Source: Rhizophagus irregularis
Taxonomy: Eukaryota > Glomeromycota > Glomeromycetes > Glomerales > Glomeraceae
Assembly (NCBI RefSeq): GCF_026210795.1
Contig: NC_089454.1
Span: forward strand, 2,232,001-2,296,000
Length of the DNA stretch: 64,000 bases
Direction: 5' to 3'
Part shown: positions 27,273 through 51,420 of the stretch, piece by piece
Position numbering within the stretch: position 1 is the stretch's first letter
Layout of the letters: each line of letters begins with the position of its first letter
The notes under the pieces: model-generated
Told to the model about the DNA's origin: nothing
Database searches by the model: none
The model's input: only the letters and a program-made list of their open reading frames with translations
Program-made: the position numbers and the translations under genes

Positions 27273-28998
27273 AACTGAAAAAAAAGATGTAAGATATAAA
27301 AAAAAAGGTAAGCAATGTAAGGAATACTACACCCCTTTTTAATCGTTTCCAAATTTAAATAAATGGAAACATTCCCTTTTTATTGAGACTAAAATAAGGT
27401 TCTATTTGATTGTATTAGTTTGTGCTACTAAGGTAGACAAATTATTTGAAGTATATGGTAGGACCTGCAGACCTCTTGCTATTTTTTGGCACTCCCGTTT
27501 TGGATGCAGCGGGTAACCTGCTGTAATTATTACACAAACAGATCAGCAAAAAAATTTCCTTTTGTAAATCTTACCGAACATTTAAAACACGTAACAAATT
27601 ATCCAGAGATTGTGTCGAAATTGATGTTCCAACGATTATAAATTTTTGACAATCATGACTTAAAATAAAAATTATTGAGATTTCATTCATAATTCCCAAT
27701 TTGGACGAAAAAAACTCGGGCAATTTTTAGTATAGATGAAACTAATCTTTAAATTTTTTGTGGAAAAGGAAATACTTACCATTTTTAATTTATCCAATTT
27801 ATCCTTTGTAATAAAAAAAAGTTGAATCACTTTCCATTTTTTGATTTGTCTTTTTCTCTTTTTGTAAAAAAAAAAAAAATTTCTCTTCAGAAAATTAATA
27901 TCTCTTATTCTCAGAAAATTTTCAATATTTTATTTTAATTAATTAACGGTCACATTAAATTTTAATTTTGAAAAAAGGTATAATTATCCAAAATTTCATA
28001 TTTCACACAAAAGCTAGTGTTTTCTATGATAATTTGTGGTGTAGTATTTTCGTGGTACTTTTATACTGCTTATAATAATTATTTTAAGAAAAACAACTTG
28101 TATTAAAATATTTTCATAAATTAAAAACATTAACATTGGCTATTTTGAATCGTATTAAAAAAAAAAAGTATAAACGAATGTTATACTCGGACTTGTACTT
28201 GTACTAAACTGGTAGAGTGCAGATGCTATGGCACCATTATTGTTTATTTAAAAAAAATTACGATTTTTTTTTAAAAAATTGTGAAATTTTCTTTTTTAAC
28301 AATAATCGTTAATAATTAAATTAAGAGAATTTTTTATAAATTATTAACAATAGAAAAGTTAAAATAAAAATAGAATATTTTTTTTTACCAACAGAAAATA
28401 TCGTACACTTAAACAATGACTTAAGCCAAAGTTGGTTTGCTTTCTTTTTTCTTATTTTAGAGAATTGAAACCCTATCCATAATTTTCTCTGGAGATTTAA
28501 TATATGCTTCTATCTTGCGTTTGAAAGGCTCCTCTGTGGATTCGTTTAAAAAACCTAAAATAGACCAGTCCGCAGATTTTTTGTCTACAGTATTTTTACA
28601 CAAATTAAGTTCGTTATGTTTTAGAAAGAAAAAAAATGTAGGAACTAAAATAAATATAAAAATTAGTATCAGCTCGTTCTACTTTAAACTTAAACTTGAA
28701 AAAAATGTCTCTTTTCGAAAAATAAAAACAAATAGAATTTAAATATCGATTATCAAAAATGTTGAGAGGATTCAGAATATCTAATCTATCAGTTAAACTT
28801 TGAAGATGAAAATTGTATAATTCGGAAATATCGTAAATTAAAAATATCTCAATTTTTTTAATTAGATAGTATCAATCTACGTTACACAGAACGAACACTA
28901 AATCATTTATATCCGGACTGAACCTTGTTAATCGGTACTGGTTAGTCCATATGTAGATTTTAGCCCTCGTGAAACTTATCGGCTAACAAGATCTTCAA
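27273..28998. other. Divergent intergenic region
   Basis: Lies between the minus-strand lectin gene and the plus-strand LamG-MIR gene. No further gene recognised. The part from about 28880 on is conserved with the upstream regions of the other LamG-MIR genes. Confidence 0.45.
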
Positions 28999-29018
28999 CA
29001 TTACACATTCGTGTAATG
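28999..29018. promoter_or_regulatory. Palindromic upstream site of LamG-MIR gene A
   Basis: CATTACACATTCGTGTAATG has 8-bp arms and a 4-bp centre. It lies 158 bp before the ATG at 29177. The same site precedes three paralogs at nearly the same distance, together with AAGATC just before it and TTAGTCC.TATGTAGATTTTAG about 60 bp further up (also in gene B). Confidence 0.6.
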
Positions 29019-29176
29019 AATTTGTCTAACCTAATTATAATATATAAGGTACCATTTTACGGAATAGAATTTTATAAGGATAATCGTAAAAAAACTTGTC
29101 AAAAGGAATTTTTCATTTACTCAACTTTAAATTTATTCTTAATTCAGTGACAAATTAATTTTTTCTTTTCGGAAAA

Positions 29177-30810
29177 ATGAAGAAATTTGTTGTCAAAGAG
29201 TGGGCCGAACTTATTTCAGATCCTATTTCCATGGGAGAACAGGATCAACGAGTCTTTGAACATGCTAGTTTGCCCGCAGTGAGTGATATGTTGTCAATAA
29301 CATTACGATTGAAAATCCGGAGCCATGCAAATGATTGGGCTACTATTCTTCACAAAGGTAAGACGTGCTTTATTTCCTTTACAAAAAGATTTTAATTATG
29401 CAAGATTTCTGGAATTTATTTTTAGAATATTTTCATACTAATGCTTTTTTGGCCATCACGTACAATTAAGGTACTGGACACCCAGTCCGTACTCCTGGGC
29501 TCTGGCTGTCAGCACACATATCTATCTTGAGTCCTCAATTCTCAGGCAGCTGGCAAGATTGTGTGGTAATAGGAACCGATGAAAGGCTTACGTTAAACAA
29601 ATGGTACCATTTGGCTATTACACTTTCTGATCCTGAAAAGCGATCGGATTTCTACATAGATGGTGAATGGGTTGGGTTCATTAGTGTTTGTAAGGTTAAA
29701 ACACAAAAAATTGTCTTTAATGATGGTCCACTGCATATCGGACGTGCTTTCTCTCATAACGGGTTTAATGGTGAAATTAGGTATGATTTAAAATTATGGT
29801 AAAATTAATATAAAATATTAAAATATTAATTGAAATCATTATACAAAAAAGCAATGTTCGTTATTTCAATTGGCGATTATCTGCCGAGGAAGTGAAGGAA
29901 GATTTTTTCGTAAGAAATTTTAGAATAAATTCATATCATAAGCTTTTACAAATAATTAATGTTTTATTTTTTATTAAAAAAGAATGAATATCAGACAAAG
30001 CCAATTGTATATGGATCAAGAATCGCTCTTGTACATGTATCTACCAGAAAATATTTATCTACTAAAAGAATCAAGTATGACTTGGGCCCAAATAACCAAC
30101 AATATATGGTATTTACCAATTTGCTTTTGTTATCCTTTATACTAGAAAAAAAAAATGGTTTAACATCATGAGGTTTCTTACAAAATTGTAAAAGGTTATT
30201 TGTAATAGACAGGAAATAGATTTAGAAAATGATGTTTGGATTGTTATTAGAGCTAGTGGTACAAGGGTAATTGCAGGAAGTCCTGTGCCTATTAGTGCTA
30301 TAATTGGATTTAGGCATCAAGCAACAGAATATAATTTACATTCTCATGAAATTTGCGATATTAAAGTCACACCAATATCAAGGCAACAGCAAGGTATTTC
30401 TGAATAAATATATGTGCATTTCTTGTGTCAAGATTTAACATATTTAAGAACTTAATTATTAGTGAGTTTGTATGATAATACTAGTAATAATATTAATATT
30501 GATGATGATTGGTTAATTCGACGTTATAATTCAAATATTACTACTTATGATGATACTGGTTATTTGAGGAATGGTGATATTATCAGTCTTTTTCATATCA
30601 GAACTAATAGACCAGCACTCTGCAGTCATACCATCTTATTAGGCGATGAATCCCAAGAAGTTTTTTGTCATCATGGAGATGAAAGTGAAAGAAATAACAA
30701 GGTACATATATTCAATCCAGAAATATAAATCATGCAGAAAAAATTTTTTTTTGCTTACTATTTATTATTTAAATATTTTTTTTTAGTGGCGTATTGAATT
30801 AATTGATTGA
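29177..30810 (+). CDS. LamG (concanavalin A-like) - MIR domain protein, gene A
   Basis: Seven-exon model, 378 aa: 29177-29357, 29471-29780, 29852-29909, 29983-30108, 30195-30393, 30463-30701, 30787-30810, all GT..AG and in frame. The N-terminal half is a laminin G/concanavalin A-like fold (KWYHLAITLSDPEKR, DFYIDGEWVGF, LHIGRAF, NVRYFNWRLSAEEVKEDF). The C-terminal half resembles a MIR beta-trefoil (PIVYGSRIALVHVSTRKYLS, GFRHQATEYNLHSHE, DIISLFHIRTNRPALCSH, NNKWRIELID). MIR repeats occur in protein O-mannosyltransferases and inositol-trisphosphate receptors, but no catalytic or channel part is present here. No signal peptide, so a cytosolic binding protein is likely. Two further copies look intact and one is broken, with the same exon lengths in exons 3, 4, 5 and 7. 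Confidence 0.8.
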
Positions 30811-32928
30811 TACAAAAATGATAATGGGATATATAAGAAATTTAAGCTCACGAATATTATTTATTGAGAATTATATTTAGTCATAAATATTTTTACAACA
30901 AAAATACTTGTATCGTAGAATTTCTGTACATAATAAAATATCCTTCATATCGTATTTGACATGTGTCGAGTCTTCAAGATTCATTATTTTAGTAAATTTC
31001 TCACAAGTTATGAAATGATAACGGATTTATTAAAACAAATAGTGTAAATTATTCTTTCATAATCATTTATGTTGAATAGATCAATACAGATGAAATTATT
31101 TTTACAGCAATAACATTCATTTTTTAATTTAATTTAATTAAATATATGAATATATACTTTATAATGGTTAAAAAAATCCTTTTAATATGTAAAGATAATT
31201 ATTTTTGAAGAACATTAGATGCAGTATTAAAAGCTTTTATTGATTGAAATTGGGATTTTTACAGTTGACATCAATGGTTAAAAAAATATAATAAATTATT
31301 AGTATTTATAAATATATAAATACATAGTATATAAATGCATAGGATTAAAACATATCGTTTTAAAAACATATTGTTATAGTTATAATATTCAAAACTTTAT
31401 ATTTTGATCCATACATGTATGACCTATATATTATATTATCTATTTTAATTTATTTTACAATTTTCATTTATTATATGTTGTATTGCCACTTGCCTTCATA
31501 CTCTTCCCCTTTATTTATTTAATTTATCCTTGTTTTTTAATCCATACTACATATACCTTTGTTTTTCTCTAGTTCAATTACCCCTTCACATCATGGAACC
31601 CATAATATACTTTTTAATATTCATTGTAGCACTCTTCCCATAACTCTTTTAAATACTACCCTTTCTTCTTTTTTTTGCTATCTTACTCAACATTCTATTG
31701 TACAATCCTCTAATTGACTCCCTAACCAAATTATCTTGATTAACCACTAATACCTTAGACGATTTTTGTAATATACTGAAAAAGGTATGTTTCCTTTTCA
31801 TTATCCTTCTCATAACGCAGCCCTAACTACAGTATCATTTGCAATATTACTTCCACAACATCAAGTTCATTCTTCTCACATTCCCATATGTGATCCCAAG
31901 TGTCTCACATCTCAAACATATATTCAGTTGTCATCTATTTTATTTACTTGCCTTTCAAACAATACATCATACGTTGGAATCTTATATGCACGTTCTTTGT
32001 ATCTTCGCAACACGATTGGAAATGAACTTTAAGGTCTTGTTTCAGTCAATTTCTTGATTAACATTATTATGAAACAGGTCCGCAAAATGTGAAAAATTGA
32101 TCATGTTCACTTTATACTTGTTTACAAACAGTTTTAACCCAATCTCAATCGTTTTTCACATATTAAATTATTGATTCATGAGCTTAATTAATACTTCTAT
32201 TACTAATTTCTCCCATATCTATCTTTATGACTGTTTCTAACTCTTTAATTATTGCATTCGCCTCTGTTTTAACTATTTCATCTCCATTATTAATTTCAAC
32301 AAACTCCAACTGTGTACTTTGTTCCTCAATCCAATTCTAATTTCAGTTGTTTAAATTTCCTTAAATGAAATTGTTAACTTATAATAACTTTCTTACTTAA
32401 TGTCAGATACACTTTATTCCTCTTATCCACTATCAATAACAAATTATAATAATTATGTAGAATTGCTCTATTCAGTTTGTCTCCACAATTGCAAGACATG
32501 TAGTTTTCCTTCATCATATATCATGTTTTTATACCATACATATTTTTCTTTGGTGACTAGTGTATTCATAAGCATTAATTCCGGCCGGCATTAAAATTCT
32601 GGCCGAGGTTAACATCTTAATTCTGACAAATTTTATGATGCAATTACCCAAGGTCAACGTAAAATGGATACAAAACGGGTGTTGCCCATTTTTGCCCGTT
32701 TGTTATTCCATAACCCGGATACTCATAGTTACCTGAGTATACCCGGATTATATCCGGGTAAACCGGTAACGGGTCGCAGCTCTATTTTATATACTTTTTA
32801 CAAGGAAATAATGTGGTTGTTATTCTCAGGAAAAATTAAACATCTGGAAGAAAATGTTGAGGCAGCAAAAGTTAATCTTTAGTTATGAAGAATTGTCTGA
32901 AATTAGACAAATTACTAATTCAATTAGT
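30811..32928. other. Gene-poor, partly pyrimidine-rich stretch
   Basis: No gene recognised. About 31480-32560 is rich in C and T on the plus strand and poor in G, with only short frames. At 32660-32790 there is a patch of CCCGGATA/TATCCGGG-type words (CCCGGAT, CCGGTAACGGGTC). One CCGGCCGG word lies at 32581. Confidence 0.4.
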
Positions 32929-32948
32929 GGTAGATATAGATATAGATA

Positions 32949-33710
32949 TTTTTTTTTTTTTTTGATACACATTTATTTATTTTATTAGTAATAGTAACGC
33001 GTTACAATACATAGTAAAAAAAACACAAAAATACATTGAAATCTAGTCTAAAAATTTAAACTAAATCTCTTCATATCAAAACTTTAATTTAAAGTATAAA
33101 CTAACGTAACCTGTGTGCTATTCACATACAATAAAACTATGTACTAACTAAATTACTAACGACTTGATTACCTATTCTAGCTCCATTTGATGTTCCCTTC
33201 CTAAATATGTCATCCTTTACTTTTTCTTCTAATTCTATTTTTAAAATGTTTTTAATCTTTTTATTCTGTTTTTTATTTTCTTTTTTATCAACATTTTTCA
33301 CTTCCTCTTCCGGTGATTCTGACAACCGTTTCTTCTTTCTTTTAAGATTTTGACCTATACCCATTTGTTTTTCGAACTCTATTGTCTCATTGCAACGTGC
33401 GTTCCAAATCAATTGTTGTATATTTAAAAGATATTCGTCAAGAATGCGTCTCAAAAGCTTTTTCTGCGAAACATTACTACAGCTGTGCGACCATTTTTTG
33501 TTTGACGATCCTCTTGTCAATTCTCTAAGTAAAACTTCTGTGTCACAATCCTTGATTTGGTATATGCGATATCCAAAATCTTCATTTTAAAATCATCATA
33601 CATCTGAGTATCTGCTATATCTTCTATGTTTCTTGTCAAAATCGAATCAATACTCATATTCAAAATATACGCTTCAGTTCTGTTATGTCGTAATTTTTAT
33701 CACATAACCA
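32949..33710 (-). mobile_element. 5'-truncated LINE, 762 bp, with poly(A) and target duplication
   Basis: On the minus strand the element ends in a poly(A) run (plus-strand T-tract from 32949). The flanks GGTAGATATAGAT (32929 onward and 33711 onward) are a direct repeat of at least 13 bp, as expected for target-primed reverse transcription. The 127-codon frame at 33520-33137 contains LLNIQQLIWNARCNETIEFEK followed by a Lys-rich tail, resembling the C-terminus of LINE ORF2 proteins in these fungi. More coding-like sequence in a shifted frame runs up to about 33690. The reverse transcriptase domain itself is absent, so the copy cannot move. Confidence 0.8.
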
Positions 33711-33723
33711 GGTAGATATAGAT

Positions 33724-34913
33724 TTAGTATCGCCCTTACCTTACTGTACTAATATGATTTAATAAAATTTCTTCGTTTAAAGGGAATGACAGATATTTTT
33801 GACCCACTTTCCGTTTAAAGGTAATAATAGGTTAACATAAATTTGTTACCAAATAATATAGTATGATAATAATTAATCATCAAAGGCCTTTTGTCTTAGT
33901 TAAGATATAGATATAATAAATTGAATTGAATCCAACTTTCATTAATAAATTAAATAAACAAATAGTATTAGGATATTGTAAGTTGTTAAAAATGCATCAA
34001 TGATTAAATAATTCGCTAATAATAATGTCTATTGTTTTATATTTGCTTGGTATTTTGGAAAATTTACAAAAAACTCATGAACCATCAGGATATTCAAGAA
34101 TTTTATGTAAATGGTGGATGATTTTTAGGATCATTTTATAGAGCGCTCATTGAATAGATATAGCCATCAATAATATCATCCAGCAGATATACCCATGTAT
34201 TATTGTCATATACTATTAAATATTTGTCTCCAACTATAATAATATTTTTTTTATATAATAAAAAATTATTAAAAAATAATCTCCGAATTTTTTTTTAAAA
34301 AAAGTTTTATTGAGTAAAGAAAATTAGTTGAATTTTAATTTTTACAAGCTCATTATGTCGTGAAAAAGGCAATAAAATTTTGCCTGAAAAATATGTTATT
34401 GTATTATAATTTCGAAATGTTATACAGATAAAACTTTATAATCAAAGAATTTTTAATTTTCGCTTTTTCATTCGAATCTTCAAATTTGGCTCATTTAAAA
34501 ATCAATTAACAAATCATCATCACAAGTACGGCAATTGAAATTTTATTTTACTATGAATTTAAAGGTGTTTCCATTTTTTGAGTTCTATGATGATTTGTTA
34601 AAATTGGTTTCTTTCCAAAAACATCTTCAAAATTAAATTTATAGAAAATAATTCTAATTACAATACCTTAACTTCAACGTCATTTGTACCTTTGTAGTTT
34701 TTACATAAAAAAGAATAATAATAACCGGTAATGACATTTTTTTTTGTCTATATAGTATGATCAGATGATCATCATTTTGTTTACAATGCAGTACATGACA
34801 GGTAGGTTAGTAGACAATATTAAAATTTTGTGGTTGCACAACTTTTTTGTTTAACCGTCTATGGAGACTTTTTTTTTTTTTGCATTATTAAAAATAATTT
34901 GTTTTTTACAAGA
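33724..34913. other. Intergenic, upstream of kinase
   Basis: No gene recognised. A plus-strand T-tract (34870-34880) lies just before the chosen kinase start. Confidence 0.4.
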
Positions 34914-37188
34914 ATGTCTAATATTCGGAGAGAATTAATGCGAGCAGTACTTAATAGATCATTTACATCAATTGATTATAATATTTACGTTAACTTTCAT
35001 GAACAATATGAATTTCGTAAACAATTCGTTCTTGCTGATAATTCTCTTACAAAAGAAGAAAAAACTGAAGCAATAAGAATACTTAACATAGATTATGACC
35101 GAGTAAAAATTATTTATAATTATGGAACAAGGAGAGTTTGTGAAAATTGTAACCAAAAATGTTTAGCTACATTATATTGTGAATATTGTGTTCGAAATTA
35201 TTTAAAATATAATTTTTCAAATTGGACTTCTGGAAATAATATTGTTGATAATTTAATAAAAAATTGTCAAATGGAAACAATTATGCCAAATGTTATTATT
35301 GAATGGATCCCATATAATAATTTAGAAAATATTAAATATCTGACAAAAGGTGGATTCTCAGAGATTTATAAAGCAAGTTGGATTAATGGATATTATAAAG
35401 AATGGGATTCTAAAGAGCAACAATTAATGAGATTTGGAAGGTTACAAGTAATACTTAAAGAATTAAAAAATGTTGAAAATGCAAGTCAAAGTTGGTTTGA
35501 AGAGGTTTGTAAGTTAAAAATATTTAAAGAACTTAAAATTTAAAATTTAATTATTAATAATAAAATTTATTATTTTAAAGGCTAAATCACATTTAACTTT
35601 ATGCAACAAATATTCAACTATTGTTCGATGTTTTGGTTTAACCCAAAATCCATCAAATGGAAATTATTTACTTGTAATGATGAAGTTTAATATAAATTTG
35701 AGAGAATATTTACAACAAAATCATAATCAACTTACATGGAATGAAAGAATTAAAATTACTTTTTTAATAATTGATGCACTTTATTTTATTCATATAGAGA
35801 ATTCAATTCATAGAGATTTGCATTCCGGAAATATATTATATTCACAGCTTAATGATTCTTGGCGGATTAGTGATCTTGGATTTTGGTCCTGCAGACAAGC
35901 CATCAACAAGTATATATGGAAATCTTCCCTATATAGCTCCTGAAGTTATTAACGGAAAAGGTTATACTTTTAGATCTGATATTTATAGTATTGCAATGCT
36001 CATGTGGGAAATTTCATTTGGACAACCTCCATTTATGAATTATGAACATGATTATATTCTTGCAATTGATATTATTGATGGTATAAGACCAAAAATTGTA
36101 TCAGAAATTCCTTCGAAATATAAAAGTTTAATGGAGCAATGTTGGGATGCTAATCCACTAAAAAGACCTGATACTAGGACACTCCATAAAAAAATTAGAG
36201 AAATTAAATCATATTATCAGAATAATCCAAATGAATTACCTCAATTAATAACAAAAATTGATGAAAAAACAAGCAATATTTTAAGTAGTAAACTATTTAC
36301 AAGTAAAATTCATAAATTTGAAAATCTACCTGAACCAAAAAATGCAGCAGAAGGTATGCTTTTTTAATGTTTATTAACTATTTAATTTATTTTCTTTAAC
36401 ATTATAATTAATGATACCTTTTTTTTAATTAAATAATAATAGAAGAACAAAAAGGTAATATAAAATTAATAATGTTATTGTATATATCCTTTAATTTAAT
36501 AATTTAATTGAGATAATTTTTTTTTTTAAAAAAAAATAGCATTTTATATCAGTAGATCATATGATTTTAGTCTTTCTGATAATAGTAAGTATTTATTAAA
36601 ATAACATTGAATTTTTATATAAATAAAATATCATATTGATTGGTTTTCATTATAGCTGCTAGTAATCCTAGTAAATCAAGTAAAATTAATTTTAAAGGTA
36701 ATTTATTTTTAAATTAAAGTTTTATAATGGATAAATACTAATTTATATCTTAATTACTATAGATAATGATAGTAAAGAATCATCCAGATTATTTAAAAAA
36801 TTGAAAATGGAGAATGGTAAAAGCCTTAAATATTTAATTCTAATTTTCGTTTGAAGATAAGAATGAATATTTTATTAAATTTTGATTTATTTTATAATAG
36901 TAGACGTACAAAATGACTATGATGAGAGAGAAATAATGCAACAACGATCAAATATTAGTATTAATGGTAAGTAAAATAAATTATTATTTATAATAATGAT
37001 CGAGTATTATTATTCTAATTTATCTTATTTATATTAATAGATGAAGTACAAAATAATCTAAATCTTCATTCAGAAGAAAAAGATAAAACTCCCGATGGTT
37101 TGTTTATAATTTAAATATTTTTTAATGAAATTAAAATAATAAAATATATTTATTTATTAATGTAATTATTTCTTTAGACGAATTTTAA
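34914..37188 (+). pseudogene. TKL-like protein kinase gene with one frameshift beside the DLG motif
   Basis: Nine-exon model: 34914-35504, 35581-36353, 36443-36454, 36540-36584, 36656-36697, 36763-36816, 36901-36966, 37041-37097, 37178-37188. About 549 aa if read through, all GT..AG, with phases that fit throughout. A Cys-pair module (CENC..CEYC, 76-92) and NWTSGN precede the kinase domain. The domain has KGGFSEIYKA (Gly-rich loop), ILKELK (Lys182), IHRDLHSGN (catalytic Asp276), SDLG (295-297), APE, GIRPKI and CWDANPLKRPD. Seven small exons code for a Ser/Asn/acidic tail. One extra T in the run at 35881-35884, right after DLGF, shifts the frame; the downstream frame is then clean for 170 codons. 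It is either a young pseudogene or a homopolymer error. Same family as 22552-24438. Confidence 0.8.
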
Positions 37189-38478
37189 ATTAATTTTCAA
37201 TTAATTTGAAAGAATATTCATTTTTAATATTTATTATCTTATTTTCTTATTTTAAAAATTATTTTAAACACTAAGATTAGAGTAGTAAAAAAAGATTCTT
37301 AGTTTGTAATTTAAATAATTCAATCCTCTATTTTTTTTTTATAGGACTTTTCAATTATTAAATAAAGATAATTATAAATTATTATAAAATATTATGTGTA
37401 AAAGTAATTCTGTAACAACGCGTTAATATTTTACAAAAAAAAGTAATTTATAAATCATTCATTTGATTATTATTTTACGTTACGAAATGTAAAATATTCA
37501 AGTGCTGATATTACAAGTAATAAAAAAAATATTTATTGTACTTCAATGCGAACAAATACTAATTAAGTATTTAAATCCCTAAAATATAATCATTTATATA
37601 TTTTCATTTTCTTTTAAATTTTTTTTTTTAAAAAAAAAGAATTTCTTTGTCTATGTATATCCAACATTTTTTATTCTTTTTGATGATTATACTTATGAAT
37701 TATATAATCTGTCCTTTAAAAAAATTTAGTTAGAAAAACAATTATAAATAAACCGTATTACCTTAATCAATCTGATCACCGAAAAAAAAAATGGTTTTAA
37801 GTTTTCAAAAACTGGAAATAAAGAAAGAAAATATTATAAAAAATAATATTTTTAAAAAAACCGGAAGAATAAAAAAATTGTTATAAAAAACCCGATTTTA
37901 TAAAAACCGGAAAGAGAGAAAAGACTCAATAAAAATTTCAAAAAAATCCGGTTCTAAAAAGACCTGAAGAATAAAAATTCAATACAAATTTAAAAAATTC
38001 AGTTTAAAAAGCCAGGAAAAAGAGAGAACCAAAACAAATATATATATATATTAATAAAAAAAATCCGATTTTGAATACCGGAAGAATGGAAAAGAAAAAA
38101 AAATTGAATTTCAGTTTACTCGTTAAAAAAATAATTTTGGTTAGTTTAACCATTAAAGGCAAAACTGAAAGGAAAAAAACAAAAAAAGTCCGTTCTACTG
38201 TGCCGACTGCCGATCGTGTCACTCTGAGATGAAGGCGCAGATGAATCACACGTCACGTAATTCGAAATTAATTATACAGTTTACTCTAAGTATAACGGTT
38301 ATACAATCCTTTTTTTTAATTATATACAGTAGATACTTTATTTTTTAGAATTAAGTAGTAATTGGCTAATTTTAAAGAAATATCAAGAGATTTCAATGGG
38401 AAAAAATTTCTAATGTTACACAGTTGTTAGTCCTTATGTAGATTTTAGTCCTAGTGAAACATTACTTAATAAGATCAA
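37189..38478. other. Intergenic with AT/CCGG repeat
   Basis: No gene recognised. From 37795 to 38100 words of the type CCGGAAGAATAAAAA and AAAATCCGGTTTTAAAAA recur every 46-67 bp, forming a loose minisatellite. A similar motif in T-rich orientation occurs at 52765-53275. Confidence 0.5.
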
Positions 38479-38498
38479 CATTACACATCTGTGTAATG
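38479..38498. promoter_or_regulatory. Palindromic upstream site of LamG-MIR gene B
   Basis: CATTACACATCTGTGTAATG, with arms extending one base further on each side. It lies 154 bp before the ATG at 38653. It is preceded by AAGATCAA and, further up, by TTAGTCCTTATGTAGATTTT, matching the gene A upstream region. Confidence 0.6.
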
Positions 38499-38652
38499 TT
38501 TTTGTTTTACGAAACTATAATTTATAAGGTTAAATAGAATTTTAAGGATACCTTTTCTGTTTTCTCTTCATACTAATTAGACGAAAGTTTTGTTCGATAC
38601 TATTTTTTTTTTTCATTGATAAATTCCCCATTTAATAATAAAATTTCAGAAA

Positions 38653-40252
38653 ATGACGAAGCATATTGTCAGAGAGTGGGTTGAACTTATTTCAGACCCC
38701 ATTTCCATGGGAAAGCAGGATCAACGAGTCTTTGAGCACGCTGACTTGCCTACAGTGATTGATAAGCTTTCAGTAACAATACGACTGAAAATTCATAATC
38801 ATGAGCCCAATTATGCCACAATTTTTCACAAAGGTAGAGTTAATTTTATTTTTTATGATGACTAATGTTAATGAAATTATGTTTGACTTTTAAATATTAA
38901 GACTTTCTCTGCTCATAAAACAAATATAAATATATTAGGTACCAATACTGATATCCGTACTCCTATTCTACAGTTGACGCCAAATAAATCCAAATTTCAT
39001 GTTCGATTCACAGGAAACTGGGGTTCTAATGTTGGAATTGAAGAGCTTGATGATGGACTTGTAGTTAACAAATGGTATCATATAGCTTATACACTTTCTG
39101 ATCCTGAAAAAAGATTAGATATCTATGTAGATGGTGAATGGGTTGGATTCTATTGCATTCAAAATGTTAAAACACAAAAAGTCATCTTTAATAATGGACC
39201 ATTTTATGTTGGAAGAAGTACTACCCATCATATTGGGTTTAGTGGTGAAATCTGGTATGATTTGAATTTGCAATAATTTATTTAATAAACTTAATTCATA
39301 TTATTAAATGAACCTTTTATATGAATAGCAATGTACGTTACTTCAATTGGCGTTTATCTGCTGAGGAAGTAAAGGAAGATTTTTTTGTAAGAAATTTTAG
39401 AATTTATTCACATCATAAGCTTTTACAAGTAATTCGTAATGTTTAACCTTTTTTTATTAAAAAAGGATGAATTTCAAAAAAAACCAATTGTATACGGATC
39501 GAGAATTGCTCTTGTACATGTATCTACTAGAAAATATTTATCTACTAAAAAAATCCAATATGACTTGGGCCCAGATAATCAACAATATATGGTATTTACC
39601 AACGTTTTTTGTTATTAATTACATCGGAAAAAAACTATTAACATTATTTTATTATAAAGGTTATTTGTAATAGACCAGAAAGAGATTTGGAAAATGATGT
39701 TTGGACCATTATTGGAGCCAATGGTACAAGCATAAGTGAAGGAACTCCTGTGTCTCTTAATACTATTATTGGATTTAAACATCAAGCAATAGGACATAAT
39801 TTACATTCTCATGATACGAGCTATGACAAAGTTACACCAATATCAAAGCAGCAACAAGGTATTTTTAGAATTATATATATGAATTTTTTGTATTAAGGTT
39901 TAACAAATTTAGTATTTTAATTATTAGTGACCATGTGTTCACATGTAAATATTGACGATGATTGGCTTATTCGACGTTATAATACAAATACAACTTCTTA
40001 TGATGACACTGGTCATTTAATGGATGGTGATAACATCAGTCTTTTTCACATTAGCACTAATAAACCAGCACTTTGCAGTCATACCATCCTATTAGGCGAT
40101 GGATCACAAGAAGTTTTTTGTTGCCATGGAGATGGAAGTGATAGAAATAATAAGGTACATATTTAACTCAAAATATGATAATGTGAAAATTTTTTGCTTA
40201 CTATTTATTATTTAATAATACTTTTTAGTGGCGTATCGAATTAATTGACTGA
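38653..40252 (+). CDS. LamG - MIR domain protein, gene B
   Basis: Seven-exon model, 376 aa: 38653-38833, 38939-39254, 39329-39386, 39466-39591, 39660-39858, 39928-40154, 40229-40252. Same domains and splice phases as gene A; exons 1, 3, 4, 5 and 7 have exactly the same length. LamG part: NKWYHIAYTLSDPEKRLDIYVDGEWVGF and VRYFNWRLSAEEVKEDF. MIR part: PIVYGSRIALVHVSTRKYLSTKK, GFKHQAIGHNLHSHD, DNISLFHISTNKPALCSH and WRIELID. The ligand-facing loop of exon 2 differs most from gene A (residues about 62-85). No signal peptide or membrane helix. It ends tail-to-tail with gene C, 660 bp away. Role unknown; a carbohydrate- or protein-binding function is inferred from both folds. Confidence 0.8.
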
Positions 40253-40912
40253 TACTAAAATGAGAAAATGAGATAATAATGAAAATGAGATATACTTATT
40301 AGAAATTTAAGTACTTCATGTTATTATGTTTATTATTTATTATGTTTATTATTTATTAAGAGTCAATAAACAAAAATAAAATTACATTTAAGAGTTATTG
40401 TTGAATTTAGGGTATTATGAAATCTAAATATCCATAAAAATTTCCATACTTAAATAAGATATGTTAAGTATTGTTAATTTAATAAAAACTTGTAATGTCC
40501 ATTAAATCTTTTACAATCATTTACTTTGTATTCTTGAATTTTTCGAATAGATCAATGATAAAAAAAAAACAATTATATGTATATCCGATTTTAACTAGAT
40601 TTTTTTTTTAATATGCAAAGATAATTATTTTGCACACAATTTTCAATATAAAATATGAGAATTCCGGTTTCATCATTATTATTAAGTGTTAACGTTCAGC
40701 ATTTATATAATTACGTTTTGTATATTGCATTAATATTGAATCTTTCACAACAAAGTCTATATAATATTATATACAAAAAATATAAAATAATCCTTTCTCA
40801 TTTAGAGAATATTTAAAATATGCAAGTAAATTTATAACAAAAGAATCTTAATACTGTAGTTTATTTATTTATTTATTGTCTCAATAAATAAACTCATTTA
40901 CGCAATTTAGAA
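40253..40912. other. Spacer between convergent LamG-MIR genes B and C
   Basis: AT-rich, 660 bp, with no gene. Shared 3' ends of two convergent paralogs. A short TTATTTAT array lies near 40861. Confidence 0.5.
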
Positions 40913-42508
40913 TCATCCAATTAATTCAATACGCCACTAAAAATAATTATCAAATAACAAATAGTAAATAAAAAGAAATATTTTCATTAGCACATAATTA
41001 TAACCTTAAGTTACCTTATTATTGGTTTCACTTCCATCTCCATGACAAGAAACTTCTTGTGACCCGTCACCTAATAAGATGGTATGGCTGTAAAGTGGTT
41101 TATTGGTATTAACATGAAAAAGACTGATGATATCACCATTCATTAAATGACCAGAATCATGATTAAACCGTTGAATACGCCATTTATCATCAGTATTTCC
41201 AATTCCACATAAAGTCACTGAATATTAAAATTTGAAATTATTGATCGTTAAAACTTAAAAACTTAAAAATAAAAAATATATATTAACTCAAATTACCTTG
41301 CTGGTGTTTTGATATTGGAGTAAATTTTTCATGACTAGTATCATGAGAATGTAAATTTAATCCTGTTGCTTGATGTTCAAGTACAACAATAGTGTCAAGA
41401 GATACAGGGTCTCCCAATATTACTCTTGTACCTTTAGCTCTAGTAATTGTCCAAACATCATTTTTCAAATCTATTTCTCGATCATTGCAAATAACCTTTA
41501 TAAAATTTAAAAATAAGTTTTAAGTGATTTTCTAGTATAAAGAATCAATAAAACAAAACATTGGCAAATACCATAAATTGCTGGTCATCTCGGCCCAAAT
41601 CATATTTGATTCCTTTAGTAGATAAATATTTTCCAGTAGATACATGCACAATAGCGATTTTTGATCCATATACAATTGGCTTTTTCTGAAATTCATTCTT
41701 TTTAATACAAATAAAACATTAATGATTTGTAAAAGTTTATGACGTGAATCTATTCGAAAATTTCTTACGAAAAAATCTTCCTTCACTTCTTCAGCAGATA
41801 ATCGCCAATTGAAATAACGAACATTGCTATTTGTATAACGATTTCAATTAATATTTGAATAATTATATTAATTTTATTACAATTTTAAACCATGCCTAAT
41901 TTCGCCATTAAACCCGATATGAGTGAAAGCACGTCCGATATGCAGCGGTGCATCATTAAAAACAACTTTCTGTGTTTTAACGTTTTTAATGCTATTGAAT
42001 CCAACCCATTCACCATCTAAGTAGAAATCCAATCTCTTCTCAGGGTCAGAAAGTGTATAAGCCAAGTGGTACCATCTGTTTAACAAAAGCCCCTCATTTA
42101 TATCCAGCGCTACACAATTTTGCCAGTTGCCTGTGAATTGAGGACACAACGTAGATTTATGGGCTGCCAACCAGAGTCCGGGAGTACGGACTGGATGTCC
42201 AGTACCTAGATTGTACGTATGTTGTATTTGATGACCAAAAGAGTATTAATTTGATAAATAAATTCTAGCATTGTAGAAATAATGACTATTAATTAAAACC
42301 TTTATTGTAAAATAAATAAGCTAGTACTACCTTTATGAAGAATAGTAGCCCAATCAGTAGAATGGCTCCGGATTTTCAATCGTAATGTCACCGACAACTT
42401 ATCAATTACTGCGGGCAAATCAGCATGCTCAAAGATTCGTTGATCCTGTTCTCCCATGGAAATAGGATCTGAGATAAGTTCTGCCCATTCCCTGACGACA
42501 AATTTCAT
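40913..42508 (-). CDS. LamG - MIR domain protein, gene C (one GC-AG intron)
   Basis: Seven-exon model, 365 aa: 42508-42331, 42205-41896, 41826-41769, 41697-41572, 41495-41297, 41217-41015, 40936-40913. Closest to gene A by eye in exon 2 (GTGHPVRTPGLWL, LHIGRAF). LamG part: RWYHLAYTLSDPEKRLDFYLDGEWVGF, VRYFNWRLSAEEVKEDF. MIR part: PIVYGSRIALVHVSTGKYLSTKG, LEHQATGLNLHSHD, DIISLFHVNTNKP, WRIELIG. The second intron starts GCATGG where gene A has GTATGA, so the model needs a GC-AG intron, a known minor type; if it is not spliced, the frame stops soon after exon 2. Exon 6 is about 12 codons shorter than in gene A. Convergent with gene B. Confidence 0.75.
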
Positions 42509-42661
42509 AATTTTCTAATAAAATTTCATTTAATTAATATAAAGAATGAATTTAATTCAAAAATTTAGTGTCCTTTTACCAGTATTATCCTTAAATATGA
42601 AATAATTTCAATCTCGTTAAAAATGTGTGAATTCGACCCTTATATATACTGTAAATCAATG

Positions 42662-42681
42662 CATTACACGAATGTGTAAGT
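42662..42681. promoter_or_regulatory. Palindromic upstream site of LamG-MIR gene C
   Basis: On the plus strand CATTACACGAATGTGTAAGT, that is 6-bp perfect arms (TTACAC/GTGTAA) around GAAT. It lies 153 bp upstream of the ATG at 42508 and is adjoined by TTTGAAGATCTT, as in gene A. Confidence 0.55.
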
Positions 42682-43268
42682 TTGAAGATCTTATTAACCT
42701 GTAACATAATCATAAATTTCACAAGGGATACAAATAACAAGATCAAGTCCGGAATACACAATATTCGGTTAGTACTGTGTAACATTTATTCAACTTAATA
42801 AATAAGTAGATCTAGCTTTCTTATCATAGCAGCGTTACACAAATATGATATATGTTAATAGCTGATTACTGAAACATGAATGATTCAATGTCAAAAGACT
42901 TTCTACAAAATATGAAATTTATTTGAGGATTAATTGATGCATTACAAATTAGATCAAAACACCAAAAACAACAACAAAGTAGTAAAACAGTAACTACTGA
43001 TATGGAGATAATAAATTTTATTATTATTTTTAAATATTTATAAATTAAATAATTTAAAAGCAAAATTTTAATTATAATTTAAATATAAATTAAAATAATT
43101 TGCAAAAAATAAATGAGATTAGTATTATTAAATTAAGTGAAAAATAAAATAAGTTTTTTCTATATTTTAAATTATAAAATAAAATTAAAATTATTATACT
43201 TAATATTTATAAACTCTAATTTATTCAATTTTTAGGGTCTAAACTTTTGAGTAGGTAGTGTATATAAA
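42682..43268. other. Divergent intergenic region
   Basis: Lies between gene C (minus) and the F-box fragment (plus). AT-rich, with no further feature recognised. Confidence 0.4.
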
Positions 43269-43612
43269 ATGCATACAGCTAATTTGCTTGACCGGCTTGC
43301 GCCTGAATTAATACCCTTTATTCTAAAGAATTTATCAATACAGGATCTTAAAAAATGTTGCAGTATAAATGATATATGGAAAGATGAAGTGATTAGAGAA
43401 ATTCACAGAAGATTATTAGTGGATTGTACATTTATTGATGATAGAGTAACATTTAAGGTCCATGTATAACAGTATCAGTAAAACGCTTGCCCAAAAAATT
43501 TGTTTATACACTACTAGAATGTATGGATCAAAAATATCCTGCAGTAAAAAAGCTAGGCATTGGCGCAACAAATGCTGGTAAGAAAGTGATTGTAAAAAAT
43601 ATCTACTATTAA
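43269..43612 (+). pseudogene. Short F-box protein gene, probably frameshifted
   Basis: The first 66 codons give a clear F-box (LDRLAPELIPFILKNLSIQDLKKCCSINDIWKDEVIREIHRRL) and stop at 43469. Coding-like sequence goes on at once in another frame (GPCITVSVKRLPKKF, then LLECMDQKYPAVKKLGIGATNAGKK) to a stop near 43612. A frameshift is the simplest reading; the 15-nt gap with GT..AG ends (43457-43471) is too short to be an intron. It converges on the ATPase pseudogene at 43640. Confidence 0.5.
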
Positions 43613-43639
43613 AAACTGTGAGATGATAAAATTATGAAT

Positions 43640-45400
43640 CATTCTAACTATAGTAATTATTTTTTGCTTGGTGAAACTTTAGACAGGAGACGTTTCATTG
43701 CACTCACTGATGGCTGTTTCATCGCAGTCAAAATTGTTTCATCTGATGAGTCAATATCATAAGCAAGTCGTGTGGTTGGTCGACGGTAAAAAAATTATAA
43801 TCTACAAGTGAATTATTAACTTGGTCAAAACCAATTTCTTCAATCAAGTTATCTTCTAAAATATATCCTTGATCCTCTGCCTTCACTATTGCTTCCATGG
43901 TTTTGATTAAATCAGAATCTTTCCAAAGTAGTGGATTTGGCTTATATTTTAATTCTTAGGATGGTTAGGATGGAGACCATATCTCAACTTATTATATTCT
44001 GATTCGTAAACTGGAAATTTGCTATCAAAACAATTAGTTTAAAATACTTGAGATTTTTTAAAATTAACAAAAATGTATATCCTTTAAAAAGAAAATAAAA
44101 TCTGATAAGCACATTCAAGCTCTCCTTCGCAATTTTTATATTCTTTAACATATTTATCAATAATCATCATACGTGTACCCGTTATTCTGCGGACGCGGTC
44201 AAATTTGCCTTCGAGTTCTTTGCATCCTTTTTTAAAATAACAAATACCATCATGTGAGCCCTGAGTACATATAAATAGATGGGTTCAGTAAAGCCATACC
44301 ATATCGAGGAAGAACATGCTTTTCAAAATATTCTTCAGCTTCTTTCTTGCTCAAATCTCCAACAATATATGGGTTGCATGTGGAATATGCAAATCTAGGC
44401 AATAAACGTGGATTAGAAAACCATAAACATTCACATTGCTATCAAATATGATTATAAGAAGGACTTACTATCTACGATCCAATTAAAAAAGAATGGATCA
44501 GAAGAGGTAAGCACTATATGAAAACGCCCCTTTTCTTTTGTATTTGCGACCATCCAGTTCAGAATTGATCTGAGAAGAACTTCTCACTCTTCTGAACCCT
44601 CAAGTTGGCTAAACATGTTTGCTTCATCAATGACCCAAATGGGTGGAGGTATATTGTACTCCAACGGGACTTCTTCTTGTGCAAGTAACTTTTTAAGTAA
44701 ACCGTATATTTTTTGAAAATTGGTTCGAATTGTGGCCTGTTCAATTCTGATCGTTCGGAATTTTGATCGGGTTTTGAGCTGATAATTATTGGCTGATGAA
44801 ATTGTGTGTCCTGATCATTAACCCGAACTTTCCGAACAACAAAAATATGGTATCAATTTGATCGCTTTTTTTTAACGTGTCTGGTGCTTAGTAAAGTTTT
44901 AATATGCCCTCAAAAAGCTTACTATACCTTTATGGTATTGCTTATTTGCCATTTTTAAAAAAAGAAAAATATTTTATTATACGAAAAATAAGGTGATCAG
45001 GGTTAACCGTTCAATAAGCCGATCAAAGTAATTTTGATCACATATTAGGATTGGTTGATGGATTTTCGATCAAAAAAACAGAACGATCATAATTGAACAA
45101 GCCTATTGAATCATATATCCTTCTTTGGTGTGTCAAATTGTCCTTCACGACAGTTGATACAAAGAGGGTTGAAATCGCCTTTACTCGTTATCTCATGGAT
45201 CAATGCGGTTTTCCCAGTGCTAGGAGGACCTAGAACGACATGAAGTTCCGGATCAGCACTAAATGCATTTTTAAACTTAGCAAGTTCTCGTTTCCGATTG
45301 AAAAAGATCTTTTCACGAGTAACTTGTGTTATATAACGAACAACACGACCAGTTCTAAGTGTATTTGAAGTACAGCTACAGGCGTTTGGTTAAACTGAAA
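43640..45400 (-). pseudogene. P-loop (AAA-type) ATPase gene, broken and interrupted by a MITE
   Basis: Collinear pieces on the minus strand. FFNRKRELAKFKNAF is followed by the Walker A GPPSTGKT (about 45205-45230) and FNPLCINCREGQF. After the MITE come RTNFQKIYGLLKKLL and a Walker B-like IWVIDEAN (about 44620-44640), then GRFHIVLTSSDPFFF and FAYSTCNPYIVGDLSKKEAEEYF (about 44340-44400). The end is FDRVRRITGTRMMIIDKYV and RRPTTRLAYDIDSS..ILTAMKQPSVSAMK (about 43690-43800). This order fits the lineage-expanded P-loop ATPases of arbuscular mycorrhizal fungi that resemble the archaeal-type ATPase domain. Breaks include the 370-bp insert, a 2-nt loss just before it (near 45110), a stop after the Walker B exon (near 44592) and further frame changes near 44250 and 43960. 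No function is expected. Confidence 0.75.
44734..45103. mobile_element. 370-bp MITE with GGC(C/T)TGTTCAATT ends
   Basis: Inverted repeats of about 35 bp: the left end GGCCTGTTCAATTCTGATCG and the complement of the right end GGCTTGTTCAATTATGATCG continue to match up to TTTTGATCG. It splits the ATPase pseudogene between its Walker A and Walker B parts. The flanks share only CAAT in the gene's orientation, so the target duplication is not clean. The inside is rich in TGATCA-like words. Confidence 0.75.
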
Positions 45401-46636
45401 CTATTGGAAATCAAATTTTACGGAAAAATTAGCAAGACAATCGACAGATTTCTCACATACTCTGAGTTGTAAAAATGGTACGCACCTTGGTAATGTATGT
45501 CTTAAACTACTCAAAAGCAAATTATTATCATGATGACTAATTATAATCATTATTAGACCATATAAACTTTGATAAGGTTTTCGCAAATTATTTATCAATT
45601 ATCACATAGAAAGTGGAATGAATTACGCGTTTTGTTTGTTTAATTCCCTTTTATGATGACAAAACTTTCAAGGTGCCTTAAGAAAAATTTAAAAGGTAAT
45701 ACTAGAAACACTTTGAAAGAATGGTAATAAACAAAAAAAAGTGTTGTTGTTTTGAAAAATAACAAAGAAAAAGAATACGAACTATTGGAAATGTGGCTTA
45801 TTTCTGTTGAGGAAGAGAAAAAGATCGGAAAGATTAATTATGTCTTAACTATGACATACTATGACTTATCCAATTACGTCACAGTTACGTCTAATAAGTC
45901 TGCATTGTTATAACTCATAAGAATTTATCTAATATCATTGTTTTAAAAAAGTGGTGGAGCTATGTTTTTATTATCATTCCTTAATCGATTTTTGGGACAA
46001 GTTACTAAAATGGAGAGATTAAACAGTAAAATTAAACGTTCTTTTTTATAAATTAGAGGTAGAGGTTGGAACCGATTCGATTAAGATGGTTAGTCGGTTA
46101 AGGTACCTGTTAATCGATTGATTTAAACAACTAATTTAACCGATTAAATTAACCCATTATCGGTTCCAACCTCTAATTAAAAGAAATAGAAGAAAGAATT
46201 CATTTATTAATGTAAATTATAGCGTTTTATTTTAGTAGTTAACATAAATAATATTTTTTATTGTCAAATTTTTAAAAATAAATACGTGTCGAAATTGTTG
46301 TACAAAATAAATACTACCAAGTGTAAGGACTTTATTAATAATAATTTTTTTTTTTGCTCAGATTTGACTCTTCTAAAACGCTCTTATAACTAGATTTATT
46401 AATTTGTATCATCTATTTACTTTTATAGTATCTCAAAATAATATTCATCATAAATCATGTTCGTGAACACGTAAAATATTCTAATGTTAGAAGTAGAACA
46501 TTTTCGATTCATCAAGGTCTTATAAATAAATTGACATCATGATGTGTAAACGATATCGTAAAAAAATTACATAATTAACCATTTCTTTATTAAATTTTCT
46601 AATATATTTAATATATTTCAATTTCATAATTTCGGA
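45401..46636. other. Intergenic with one small foldback element
   Basis: No gene recognised apart from the MITE at 46061-46174. Confidence 0.4.
46061..46174. mobile_element. 114-bp foldback MITE
   Basis: Ends AGAGGTTGGAACCGAT (46061-46076) and its complement (46159-46174) match perfectly over 16 bp. The interior is made of ATTAATCGGTTAA-like words, so the element is almost wholly palindromic. The left flank repeats AGAGGT directly before the element. Confidence 0.7.
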
Positions 46637-48151
46637 TTAGTCCATTACTAATTCAATACGCCACTAAAAATAATTATCATATAACAAATAGTAAGCAAGA
46701 ATAAATATTTTTATTAGCATATAATTATGATCTTAAGTTACCTTATTATTTGTATCACTTCCATCTCCATGACAAGAAACTTCTTAGGATCCATTCCCTA
46801 ATATTAAAATTGTATAACTGTAAAGTTGTTTGTTAGTTCTGATGTGTAAAAGCCCAATGATGATATTATCATTCATCAAATGTCCAGAGTCATCAAAAGA
46901 ATCAGAATCGTTTGGATATAACGTCGAATAATCCAATCATCATCAATATTTATATCACGACACAGAATCACTAAATATTAAAACTCAATATTATTAATAT
47001 ATATGGTATACTCTTATATTTTATTCAATTCAATATTACCTTGTTACTGCTTTGATATTGATGTATATTTCCATAATTCGTATCATGAGAATGTAAATTA
47101 TATACCGTAGAGATCCAGGACTCCCCGCATTTACACTTGTACTATTGGCTCCAATAACGGTCCAAACATCATTTTCAAATCTATTTCCTGACTATTACAA
47201 ATAACCTTTATAAATTTTATAAATAAACTACAATATTAATTTTTTTTTTTACTAATACAAAGAAAAAAATAAAGAATTATATTTAAATACCATATATTAC
47301 TAGTTTTGTGAGCCCAAATCATATTTGATTCCTTTAGTAGACAAATATGACACATGTACAAGAAGAGCAAATTTTGATCCATATAAAATCTGCTTTTTCT
47401 GTGATACATTCTTTTTTTTTTAAAAAAAAAATGAAAGAATTACAATTAATGTAAAAGTTTATCGTTATTTAGTAAAATTATTAAGTAACTTACGAAATAA
47501 ATCTTCTTTCATTTCTTCAGCAGTTAAGCGCCAGTTGAAATAACGAACATTGCTATTTATATAATGAATTTATTTAATATTTTAATATTTATATTAATTT
47601 ACTGCAACTTTAAATCATACCTAATTAAACCATTAATTGAAAGCACGTCCAATATACAGTAACACTTTGAATGCTATATAATCCAACCCATTCACCATCT
47701 ATATAGATATCTAATCTTTTTTTTAGGATCAGAAAGTGTATAGATACCATTTATTTAAAGAAAGTCAATCTCCGAGCTCTACAATTCCAGCATTAGAATC
47801 CCAAGTCGCCTGTAGATCGGGGATGTAATGCAGATTTGCTTCCTGTTAACCAGAGTCCGAGCGTACGGATTAAATTTCGATACATAATTGCATATGAATT
47901 ATCAATTAGCAAATTGCTTAAATTAAATTTCTGGCCCTCTCCAAAAAAAAAAAAAAAAAATGTAAATAGCTTTACCTTTATGAAAACAGTAACCCACGTA
48001 GAATCATGTTTATGAATTTTCAATCGTAATGTTATTGTTGTCGTTCGCTGCGGGTAAATCAGAATGCTCAAAGACTCTTTGATCTTTGTTCTCCCATGGA
48101 AATAAGATCTGAAATAAGTTCAACCCACTCTCTAACGACATGTTTCGATAT
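46637..48151 (-). pseudogene. LamG - MIR gene D, broken copy
   Basis: All seven exons of the LamG-MIR family can be traced in order, from the start region at 48151 (HVVREWVELISD, DQRVFEHSDLPA) to the last exon (TGGCGTATTGAATTAG, 46637-46664). The start codon position reads ATA where gene B has ATG. Exon 1 has an extra base before DQRVFEH and a deletion in the DKLS region. Exon 2 has lost much of the sequence around KWYH and LHIGRA, and the MIR exons carry several frame changes. An A-tract of 18 lies after exon 1 (T-tract complement at 47944-47961). The upstream palindrome is still recognisable. Confidence 0.8.
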
Positions 48152-48308
48152 TTTCTGAAAAAGAATCAATAATTGTTATTGAATAAAATGCAAAGTGGTC
48201 AAAATTCAAATTTTTGCATATGAACAACCTTACCTATGAAAAAAATATCATAAACATGAATACAATTCTGTGAATTTAACTTTATATATATATCATAATA
48301 ATCCGAAT

Positions 48309-48328
48309 CATTACACAAGTGTGTATGT
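48309..48328. promoter_or_regulatory. Palindromic upstream site of LamG-MIR gene D
   Basis: Plus strand CATTACACAAGTGTGTATGT: the palindrome has one mismatch in an arm and is followed by TGAAGATCTTAG. It lies about 157 bp upstream of the lost start codon. It has decayed along with the gene. Confidence 0.45.
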
Positions 48329-50312
48329 TGAAGATCTTAGTCTAAATCCGTAAATGATTTCTATTATAGGCAAAATTACGCAATCTATAATATATTACCG
48401 TTAACCTTTTATAGATGAATTCGCAGTAACGCCATTTCACTATTTAAAAAAAGTTATGTTTTTAATAATTGTAAATATTAATAATGAAAATGTTAAAAAA
48501 AAAAGATAACTAAAAAATCATTAATTATCTAGAAAATTAGAAAATTACTGCAAGTGAAATATCTAAACTATTGAATTTTTGATCGTCTCAAGGCAAGATA
48601 AAGTTGAGAAATTGTAGGGTAAATTAGTAAATTTTGATCGATTAACATAATGCTGGGCCAATATCATAATGCGGGCAAATTTACCATCTTGATCACATAC
48701 TGTATCGCACGCAGTACGCTAATCTAGCTATAATTGGATTATTGACAAACAAATTCCTTATTTTAAATAAAAAAAGATGTGCGCATTGGCTGTACAGTTG
48801 ATTGAATGTTACAATGGTTACAATGAGCATAAATAAGTTTAATAAAACGAAATTTCGTTTTTTTTTTTCGACGTACATTTTATTGCATCAATAAGAAATA
48901 TTTTAATTGTTCCTTAAAAATTTTACTATATTTGTAAAAATAACAAAGTAAAAAAATTTTATTATGATCATAGGAGAATAGATTCCATAAACCAATTGAA
49001 TCATGATGCTATTATGTTTACATATTTATTATAATTGTATCTTGTTATAGTAAAAGTTCATTTCATTAGAATATATGAAAATAGATGTAAGCCAATCTGC
49101 TATGCAAAAATCGCTAGCGAATTATAATGAAAATTTGAAACTTTAATCTTTTGCGCCAACCTGTAATTCCGATTATTAAATGTGATACATGACACTAATA
49201 CAAGTTTCACATAATGAAAAATGATTTCGGAATTTTTGATTGAGGGGAAGAACTAACTACAAGGAATATTAGAAAATAAAGGGGAACTGAAATATTTTAC
49301 GTATCTTGTGACATCTTGCATTATATATTCCAGGAAAAACTGTGGAAGGGCCACTTCACAATACAATAATTATGTCGATTATAATCGATGGGAATTATTT
49401 ATGCATAGAATCGTTTGATTATCATAAATATGTAATTTTATCCGAAAAACAATAAGATTGATAGTACATTCATAACTTAATTATCATATGAATGATTGAT
49501 CGTAATGCATAAGACAAAGAAATAAATATGTGATAAAATTAAAACGCAAACAATTAATATATTTTTATAATATATTTATATACCGCCCAAACAATGGGGT
49601 TGATAACATAAAACAATATAAAAAAGTGTAAATGTGTCACTCGTTCCACAATTTAATTAATTTGGAAAGTAATGGAATAGCGCGTCTCCTTCAAATTGAT
49701 ATTCAAAAAAACATGTATATTCGGTTATTATATTACTGAATATCACTTAACTTGATTTAGTTTATTTTTTATTTCGTGTAAATCACTTTAATACATTATT
49801 ATAATATAATAGGAGTAATTTGGTACCGAATTCTATATTCCCCGATAAAAAAAAAAATAGAAAACTAAAATAGTCTCTTTGATAACTTCATATATGTACG
49901 CCAAAAATAAAAATTCGTTTAAAATCCTGAAACAAGTTTCATTCAATAAAAGCCAACGTATCGACTAAATTCGCCAACTTTCTTGTTACGGAAAAGTTAG
50001 AATATGGTGAGAACCTTAATTCAATAAATATTTTAAATTTTAAATTAAAAAAAAAAAATGATTTAATTGTACATAAAAATACTAGATTGCATCATCAAAA
50101 ATTATCACATAAAAGTCTCTTTTAGTCACCGATCACGATCATCGCCGGTTTTATCAATTCACATTTTTTTACATTATAAATATAATCGGTTATTCCGAAA
50201 CTTATTTAAAAAATGTATAAATATCCCTTCCATTTATTTGAACATTCGTATTTCTTTTGAGGAAAAGTCATCATAAAAGCCATCCTATAAGTATAATATC
50301 CTATAATATCCT

Positions 50313-50366: not shown

Positions 50367-50376
50367 TCTCTAAAAA

Positions 50377-50832: not shown

Positions 50833-51420
50833 TATTTTTTTTTATCCGTTTTAATGATCAATCCTTTTTACCTGAACTGGCGTTCTTATATCCTTATTTC
50901 GACTATGAACACTATTGTCGCTTATACCTTTTACTTTTATTTTACGTTTTTTTTGATTTGGTATAGTTTATGAGTTGGAACTTACATTCATTTCAACTTT
51001 TCCCATTACTATTAGTATTTTTATTACTATCTTCCTTTTATCCGTTTTAATAATTAAAACCTTTTCGTCCATTCAATTTAGTTGATGACCTGACATTCTT
51101 TTATTCTTATCGCGATCGTAACATTTTTTCCACTTGATATGATGATATGATAAGGCCTTCTTTTATTGTTTTATTATTTTTTGATCTCCTTATATATATA
51201 TATACTACGCAAATAATTTTTCTTTAAATTTTTTTTTTAAAAAAAAATATGTATTTATTGTATATTATACAACATACAATTATTTAAATTTACAGTGTCG
51301 GTATGGATTTAGGAAAGAAACGTTTCTTTTAAATAAGGGATTTTTAATGTACTTTAAATCAAAAATAAAGATATAATTTATGTCTATTAAGCACACTTAT
51401 TTATTGTTAAATATAAATAT

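Follow-up and report, generated by a model that had tools for sequence, protein, structure and literature searches.

A palindrome above the TATA box of four LamG-MIR genes in Rhizophagus irregularis, a predicted dimeric-factor site

Known sites resembling the palindrome

In yeast, an Mcm1 site stands between two alpha2 sites, and we take the string TTTACACG to be the half-site of the yeast MATalpha2 homeodomain protein. The same string is present in the designed DNA of one paper (PMC5946862). The palindromic T-box site of Brachyury is given as AATTTCACACCTAGGTGTGAAATT (PMC11828899). Several early-branching fungi are stated to have T-box genes (PMC10256749), and R. irregularis itself is reported to have HD1-like and HD2 homeodomain genes at a putative mating locus (PMC11414155).

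Here we describe a palindrome, CATTACACATTCGTGTAATG, found upstream of four LamG-MIR genes (A–D) in a 64-kb stretch of R. irregularis DNA (NC_089454.1; hereafter the window, with positions counted from its first base). Like the Brachyury palindrome, it is an inverted repeat with GTGT half-sites and a 4-bp spacer (TTTCACAC-CTAG-GTGTGAAA beside CATTACAC-ATTC-GTGTAATG; PMC11828899). The LamG-MIR half-site nevertheless differs from the T-box half-site AGGTGTGAAA in the first two bases, in base 7 and at the outer end; compared by eye the two are not close, and what agrees is the GTGT and the 4-bp spacer. For MATalpha2, the likeness consists of seven letters, TTACACG, which equal the TATA-side arm of A and C on the other strand, whereas the B and D arms read TTACACA. 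TTACACG occurs in one arm each of A and C and is absent from the B and D palindromes. In a further difference, no middle site is seen between the LamG-MIR arms of the kind found in the yeast alpha2–Mcm1 arrangement. A T-box protein or a MATalpha2-like homeodomain protein might be considered as the factor, as leads by resemblance only; chance resemblance to some known site is easily found. A bacterial match to the motif strings, in the LdtR paper (PMC4658428), was rejected, the strings there being mutagenesis primers. Literature searches on the LamG-MIR family or the palindrome site found nothing, and no paper was found on MIR-domain expansion in Rhizophagus irregularis or on the MIR domain and mycorrhiza.

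The LamG-MIR genes and their shared palindrome

The window has a GC content of about 27% and genes with short introns, whose products include kinase domains, BTB, BACK and TLDc domains, a jacalin-like domain and the LamG-MIR proteins, features that would suit a glomeromycotan, Rhizophagus-like arbuscular mycorrhizal fungus. A tblastn search of the whole window placed the LamG-MIR family at A, B, C and D only, on both strands and spread across 20 kb. Gene A (29177..30810, plus strand) has seven exons and encodes 378 aa, with a Laminin_G_3 domain followed by a MIR domain; gene B (38653..40252, plus strand; seven exons, 376 aa) is 68% identical to A, and gene C (40913..42508, minus strand; seven exons, 365 aa) is 74% identical to A. 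The seven-exon models of all three are free of internal stops, and their coding DNA is 78–83% identical. In the model of gene C, intron 2 starts with GC instead of GT. Gene D (about 46614..48160, minus strand) is a LamG-MIR pseudogene that has lost its start codon and has several frame breaks.

A domain scan, made of gene A only, scored Laminin_G_3 at 2.2e-14 and MIR at 1.8e-7. A LamG-MIR profile search against solved structures gave 13 sequences, mainly MIR domains of protein mannosyltransferases; these and an SDF2-like protein are matched by the second half of the LamG-MIR product. In contrast to the protein mannosyltransferases, that product is without the transferase part and has a Laminin_G_3 domain joined to the MIR domain instead. 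The likeness bears on the LamG-MIR gene and not on the palindrome. Relatives of the LamG-MIR protein were found in neither of two public collections, viral_contigs and genome_contigs. The exact palindrome is present in six stretches of viral_contigs, and none of the six loci encodes a LamG-MIR protein by tblastn.

The first-pass annotation had placed the palindrome or a close variant before all four genes, on whichever strand the gene lies, and mismatch searches bear this out. Searching for CATTACACATTCGTGTAATG with up to three mismatches recovered the sites of A (exact), B and C, that of B being listed on both strands as it is palindromic; shuffled sequences gave 0.01 matches on average. The site of D, which has a missing base, did not appear in this search and was picked up with TTACACANNTGTGTAA at one mismatch. 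Palindrome A (28999..29018, plus strand) reads CATTACAC-ATTC-GTGTAATG, with 8-bp arms. Palindrome B (38479..38498, plus strand) has two mismatches to CATTACACATTCGTGTAATG, both in the spacer, and forms perfect 11-bp arms around a 2-nt centre (38477-38487 and 38490-38500). Both A and B have perfect 8-bp arms about a 4-bp spacer. Palindrome C (42662..42681, minus strand) also has two mismatches, with the two outer bases of its distal arm changed, and palindrome D (48309..48327, minus strand) is 19 nt long, with a distal arm one base short. The core common to all four is TACACA-YY-YGTGTAATG; the spacers are ATTC (A and C), ATCT (B) and ACTT (D), the inner arms are invariant, and the TATA-side arm GTGTAATG is identical throughout. 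Recomputed from the gene models, the distances from palindrome to start codon are 158, 154, 153 and 157 bp for A, B, C and D, the last measured to the former start, and agree with those first given.

The degenerate form TTACACN4GTGTAA with up to two mismatches matches eight places in the window, against 3.6 expected. These are A, B and C, all exact, D at one mismatch and four others at exactly two, so that no place in the window outside the LamG-MIR sites has fewer than two mismatches; base composition predicts 0.0066 exact matches in 64 kb. Among 19-mer blocks common to the four upstream regions of 400 bp, the best has a score of 50 of 57, compared with 42.0 ± 1.0 (maximum 45) in 300 dinucleotide shuffles. 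Perfect 8-4-8 inverted repeats are not rare in this AT-rich DNA, the window having 18, and we do not take the symmetry by itself as proof; among the 18, only those of A and B have three G/C per arm.

Conservation upstream of the four genes

In 40-bp bins, identity in the bin that holds the palindrome is 0.72 (A–B), 0.82 (A–C) and 0.70 (B–C). The two flanking bins give 0.33 and 0.47 for A–C, 0.39 and 0.40 for B–C, and 0.82 and 0.65 for A–B; among A, B and C identity rises again at the ATG, to 0.70–0.80. The leader from palindrome to ATG, aligned whole, is 48–60% identical, against 51–53% in shuffled copies. Local alignment of 1500-bp regions gave blocks of 42 columns (88%) for A–C, 32 (91%) for A–D, 36 (81%) for B–C and 142 (75%) for A–B. 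Blocks of 81 columns (75%) for C–D and 63 (75%) for B–D, extending from the palindrome across the TATA box as far as about −110, were reported by the search of 400-bp regions only and are absent from the 1500-bp search. The intergenic DNA had been described as otherwise strongly diverged: A–C, A–D and B–C fit that description, but C–D and B–D are alike from the palindrome through the TATA box. The further block ascribed to A and B is present, and is wider than described: 142 columns at 75% on the plus strand (A 28941..29082, B 38426-38550; −236 to −95), a stretch that takes in the palindrome, sequence above it and the TATA box.

Identity over the core is 29/32 for A–C and 28/31 for A–D and C–D. 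A value of 29/32 has a chance of 1.3e-6 if the true identity is 0.5 and 1.4e-4 if it is 0.6, before counting window positions. The palindrome is conserved beyond the surrounding DNA, more weakly so in A–B, C–D and B–D, pairs whose adjoining sequence, up to and including the TATA box, can be aligned too. As judged from the alignments, the conserved unit is the palindrome together with the TATA box, of which the palindrome is the best-kept part.

Such a pattern might simply be left over from common descent, a stretch that by chance has diverged least and has no present function. The four genes come from one ancestor, so the copies of the palindrome are not independent and part of their likeness is plain inheritance. 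The genes are also young, as the 78–83% coding identity among A, B and C indicates, A and B are alike over all 142 columns, and pseudogene D retains its site with no evident need for it, which counts against a functional reading. Paralogs elsewhere in the window behave in a similar way. A pair of HMG-like ORFs (50374-50842 and 61258-61732), both below the Pfam HMG_box cut-off (23.1 and 21.9 against 25.4 bits), is 77% identical in its coding part and is also alike upstream, in three blocks (94, 87 and 50 columns) with 73–78% identity, from which we conclude that common upstream sequence between paralogs is ordinary in this genome. The LamG-MIR genes are set apart by how short their block is, by its symmetry and by its constant position. 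Mere descent has to account for a likeness that is greatest over a short inverted repeat, identically placed in each of the four genes, beside a leader near the shuffled level, with the position of the TATA box held as well; under uniform divergence the binomial odds of the A–C core are 1e-4 to 1e-6 per position. We consider it unlikely.

A second candidate control, a pair of BTB/BACK-TLDc genes (870-2281 and 5109-6543, minus strand, 69% identical), was dropped, as the stretch in common in their supposed upstream region reads as coding DNA. Within the LamG-MIR genes (28777-30850, 38253-40292 and 40873-42908), introns 2–6 are 57–93% identical and intron 1 is 47–59% identical. The gene bodies may have been kept alike by gene conversion, in which case a single clock need not apply to both flanks and body.

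Promoter placement and the predicted factor site

Beyond what the first-pass annotation reported, each of the four palindromes is followed downstream by a TATA box. The box reads TATAAGG in gene A (29043..29049, plus strand; 25 bp from the palindrome end, 134 bp before the ATG), gene B (38523..38529, plus strand; 25 bp and 130 bp) and gene C (42638..42644, minus strand; 18 bp and 136 bp), and TATAAAG in pseudogene D (48280..48286, minus strand; 23 bp from the palindrome end and 135 bp before the former start). The inverted repeat keeps a fixed position with respect to the core promoter in four of four genes, with the box 18–25 bp downstream; in C the distance from palindrome to TATA box is shifted by 7 bp. 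TATA-to-start distances stay within 130–136 bp while the intervening sequence is near the shuffled level. The window has ten copies of TATAAGG on both strands, four of them in the LamG-MIR leaders, where gene A carries another copy 30 bp beyond its first, and 47 of TATAARG, which corresponds to a chance of about 0.9% per 25 start positions; as the four boxes are not independent, the product of four such chances is not to be taken at face value.

Transcription starts about 30 bp downstream of a TATA box. On that basis the palindrome would lie some 50–75 bp above the transcript, in the proximal promoter rather than in a transcribed leader, and the leader would be about 100 nt long. This placement bears on the first-pass alternative of a transcribed leader structure, considered here as a hairpin acting on the mRNA, with an 8-bp stem and a 4-nt loop. 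As RNA, A and B would give exactly such a stem and loop, 93.5% of cells pair, and the site is within 160 bp of the start codon. Transcription from the TATA box that follows it in all four would, however, exclude the palindrome from the message. C has two broken pairs and D has lost one, and no pair is changed on both sides: six of the eight arm pairs never vary in base, and the departures are two unpaired cells (C) and one gap (D), although a pair count from four sequences is weak evidence by itself. Nor does any Rfam family match anywhere in the window at its gathering score. The lack of compensatory change among the eight pairs, together with the position of the TATA box, favours recognition as DNA rather than as RNA, and we regard the hairpin as very improbable.

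The other half of the earlier interpretation, that a dimeric transcription factor binds here, is the reading best supported, by an inverted repeat at a fixed place above the TATA box in all four genes whose sequence, and not its pairing, is conserved. We consider it likely that the palindrome serves the LamG-MIR genes as a proximal promoter element and is a predicted site for a dimeric transcription factor. It is real, and probably a functional promoter element of this paralog cluster held by selection, of an ordinary kind among promoter elements.

Protein binding, the dimeric state, the effect and the identity of the factor are what we infer here, from sequences, positions, spacing and conservation that are observed directly. 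A dimeric, sequence-specific factor would bind an inverted repeat of the half-site [C/A]ATTACAC[A/G], 18–25 bp above the TATA box, and the bound dimer would help or hinder assembly at that box and so set the expression of the family. The TATA-side arm GTGTAATG, the same in all four, would probably be the main contact, and the distal arm would tolerate change at its outer end.

Lying directly above a TATA box, where general proximal elements lie, the palindrome could instead belong to the core promoters of many unrelated genes and not be specific to LamG-MIR. We searched the 75 bp above the six TATAAGG copies outside the LamG-MIR leaders, some of which are inside coding DNA, and found no palindrome. 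The rest of the 64 kb contains no copy that is exact or has one mismatch, and the HMG-like pair has upstream blocks with TATAAATA in one member and related sequence in the other but without the palindrome. A general element of this kind is distinctly unlikely, and a palindrome dedicated to the LamG-MIR family is a plausible candidate reading. The larger proposition, that it is the mark of a regulon in which one dimeric factor switches the whole family of intracellular, lectin-like LamG-MIR proteins of this arbuscular mycorrhizal fungus, is a long shot. If the association held genome-wide, a gene family would have a defined promoter site in a fungal group in which, to our knowledge, few regulatory sites have been mapped. 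The exact core is rare enough to be scanned for: assuming 150 Mb of the same base composition, about 15 copies would be expected by chance. Because the core is this rare, a single genome search would show whether the family is under one factor, for which the site could afterwards serve as bait.

That the palindrome is a mobile-element remnant, or a signal for recombination that travels with the genes, would suit their dispersal over 20 kb on both strands and the disagreement between upstream and gene-body relations, A being closest to B upstream and to C in protein. The orientation and the distance to each gene and TATA box are fixed, however, and none of the other repeats listed in a self-comparison of the window has the palindrome; we find this explanation hardly credible.

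Two neighbouring elements accompany the predicted factor site. The adjacent AAGATC(TTCAA) had been reported as shared. AAGATCTTCAA adjoins the palindrome, exact, in A (28988..28998, plus strand), C (42682..42692, minus strand) and D (48328..48338, minus strand), but B has only the shortened form AAGATCAA (38471..38478, plus strand), also adjoining. We do not use AAGATCTTCAA alone as evidence, since with up to one mismatch it is found at six places in the window against 4.1 expected, which is not significant; the exact copies at A, C and D are three of those six.

The second element is a lone half-site, GTTACACAG, 109 bp above the palindrome in A (28881..28889, plus strand), 55 bp above it in B (38415..38423, plus strand) and 93 bp above it in C (42775..42783, minus strand). 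These sense copies make up three of the five in the window, where 0.18 would be expected in all, and may bind a further molecule of the factor 55–109 bp further up. Above palindrome D, 600 bp contain no TTACACA on either strand. GTTACACAG is not exclusive to LamG-MIR: the two other copies are at 8109 and 53368, and inspection of three-frame translations recognised no gene in the DNA after either. On the minus strand at 53345-53376, two TTACACA half-sites stand in tandem, 16 bp apart (GTTACACAGTTGAAATGTTACACAATTGAAA), with no recognised gene behind them.

Relationships among the LamG-MIR promoters form a mosaic. By eye, A and C have TCCGGACT in common further upstream, and this motif and GTTACACAG belong to a farther A/C block (28881-28980 and 42690-42783), though the upstream DNA of A is otherwise closest to that of B.
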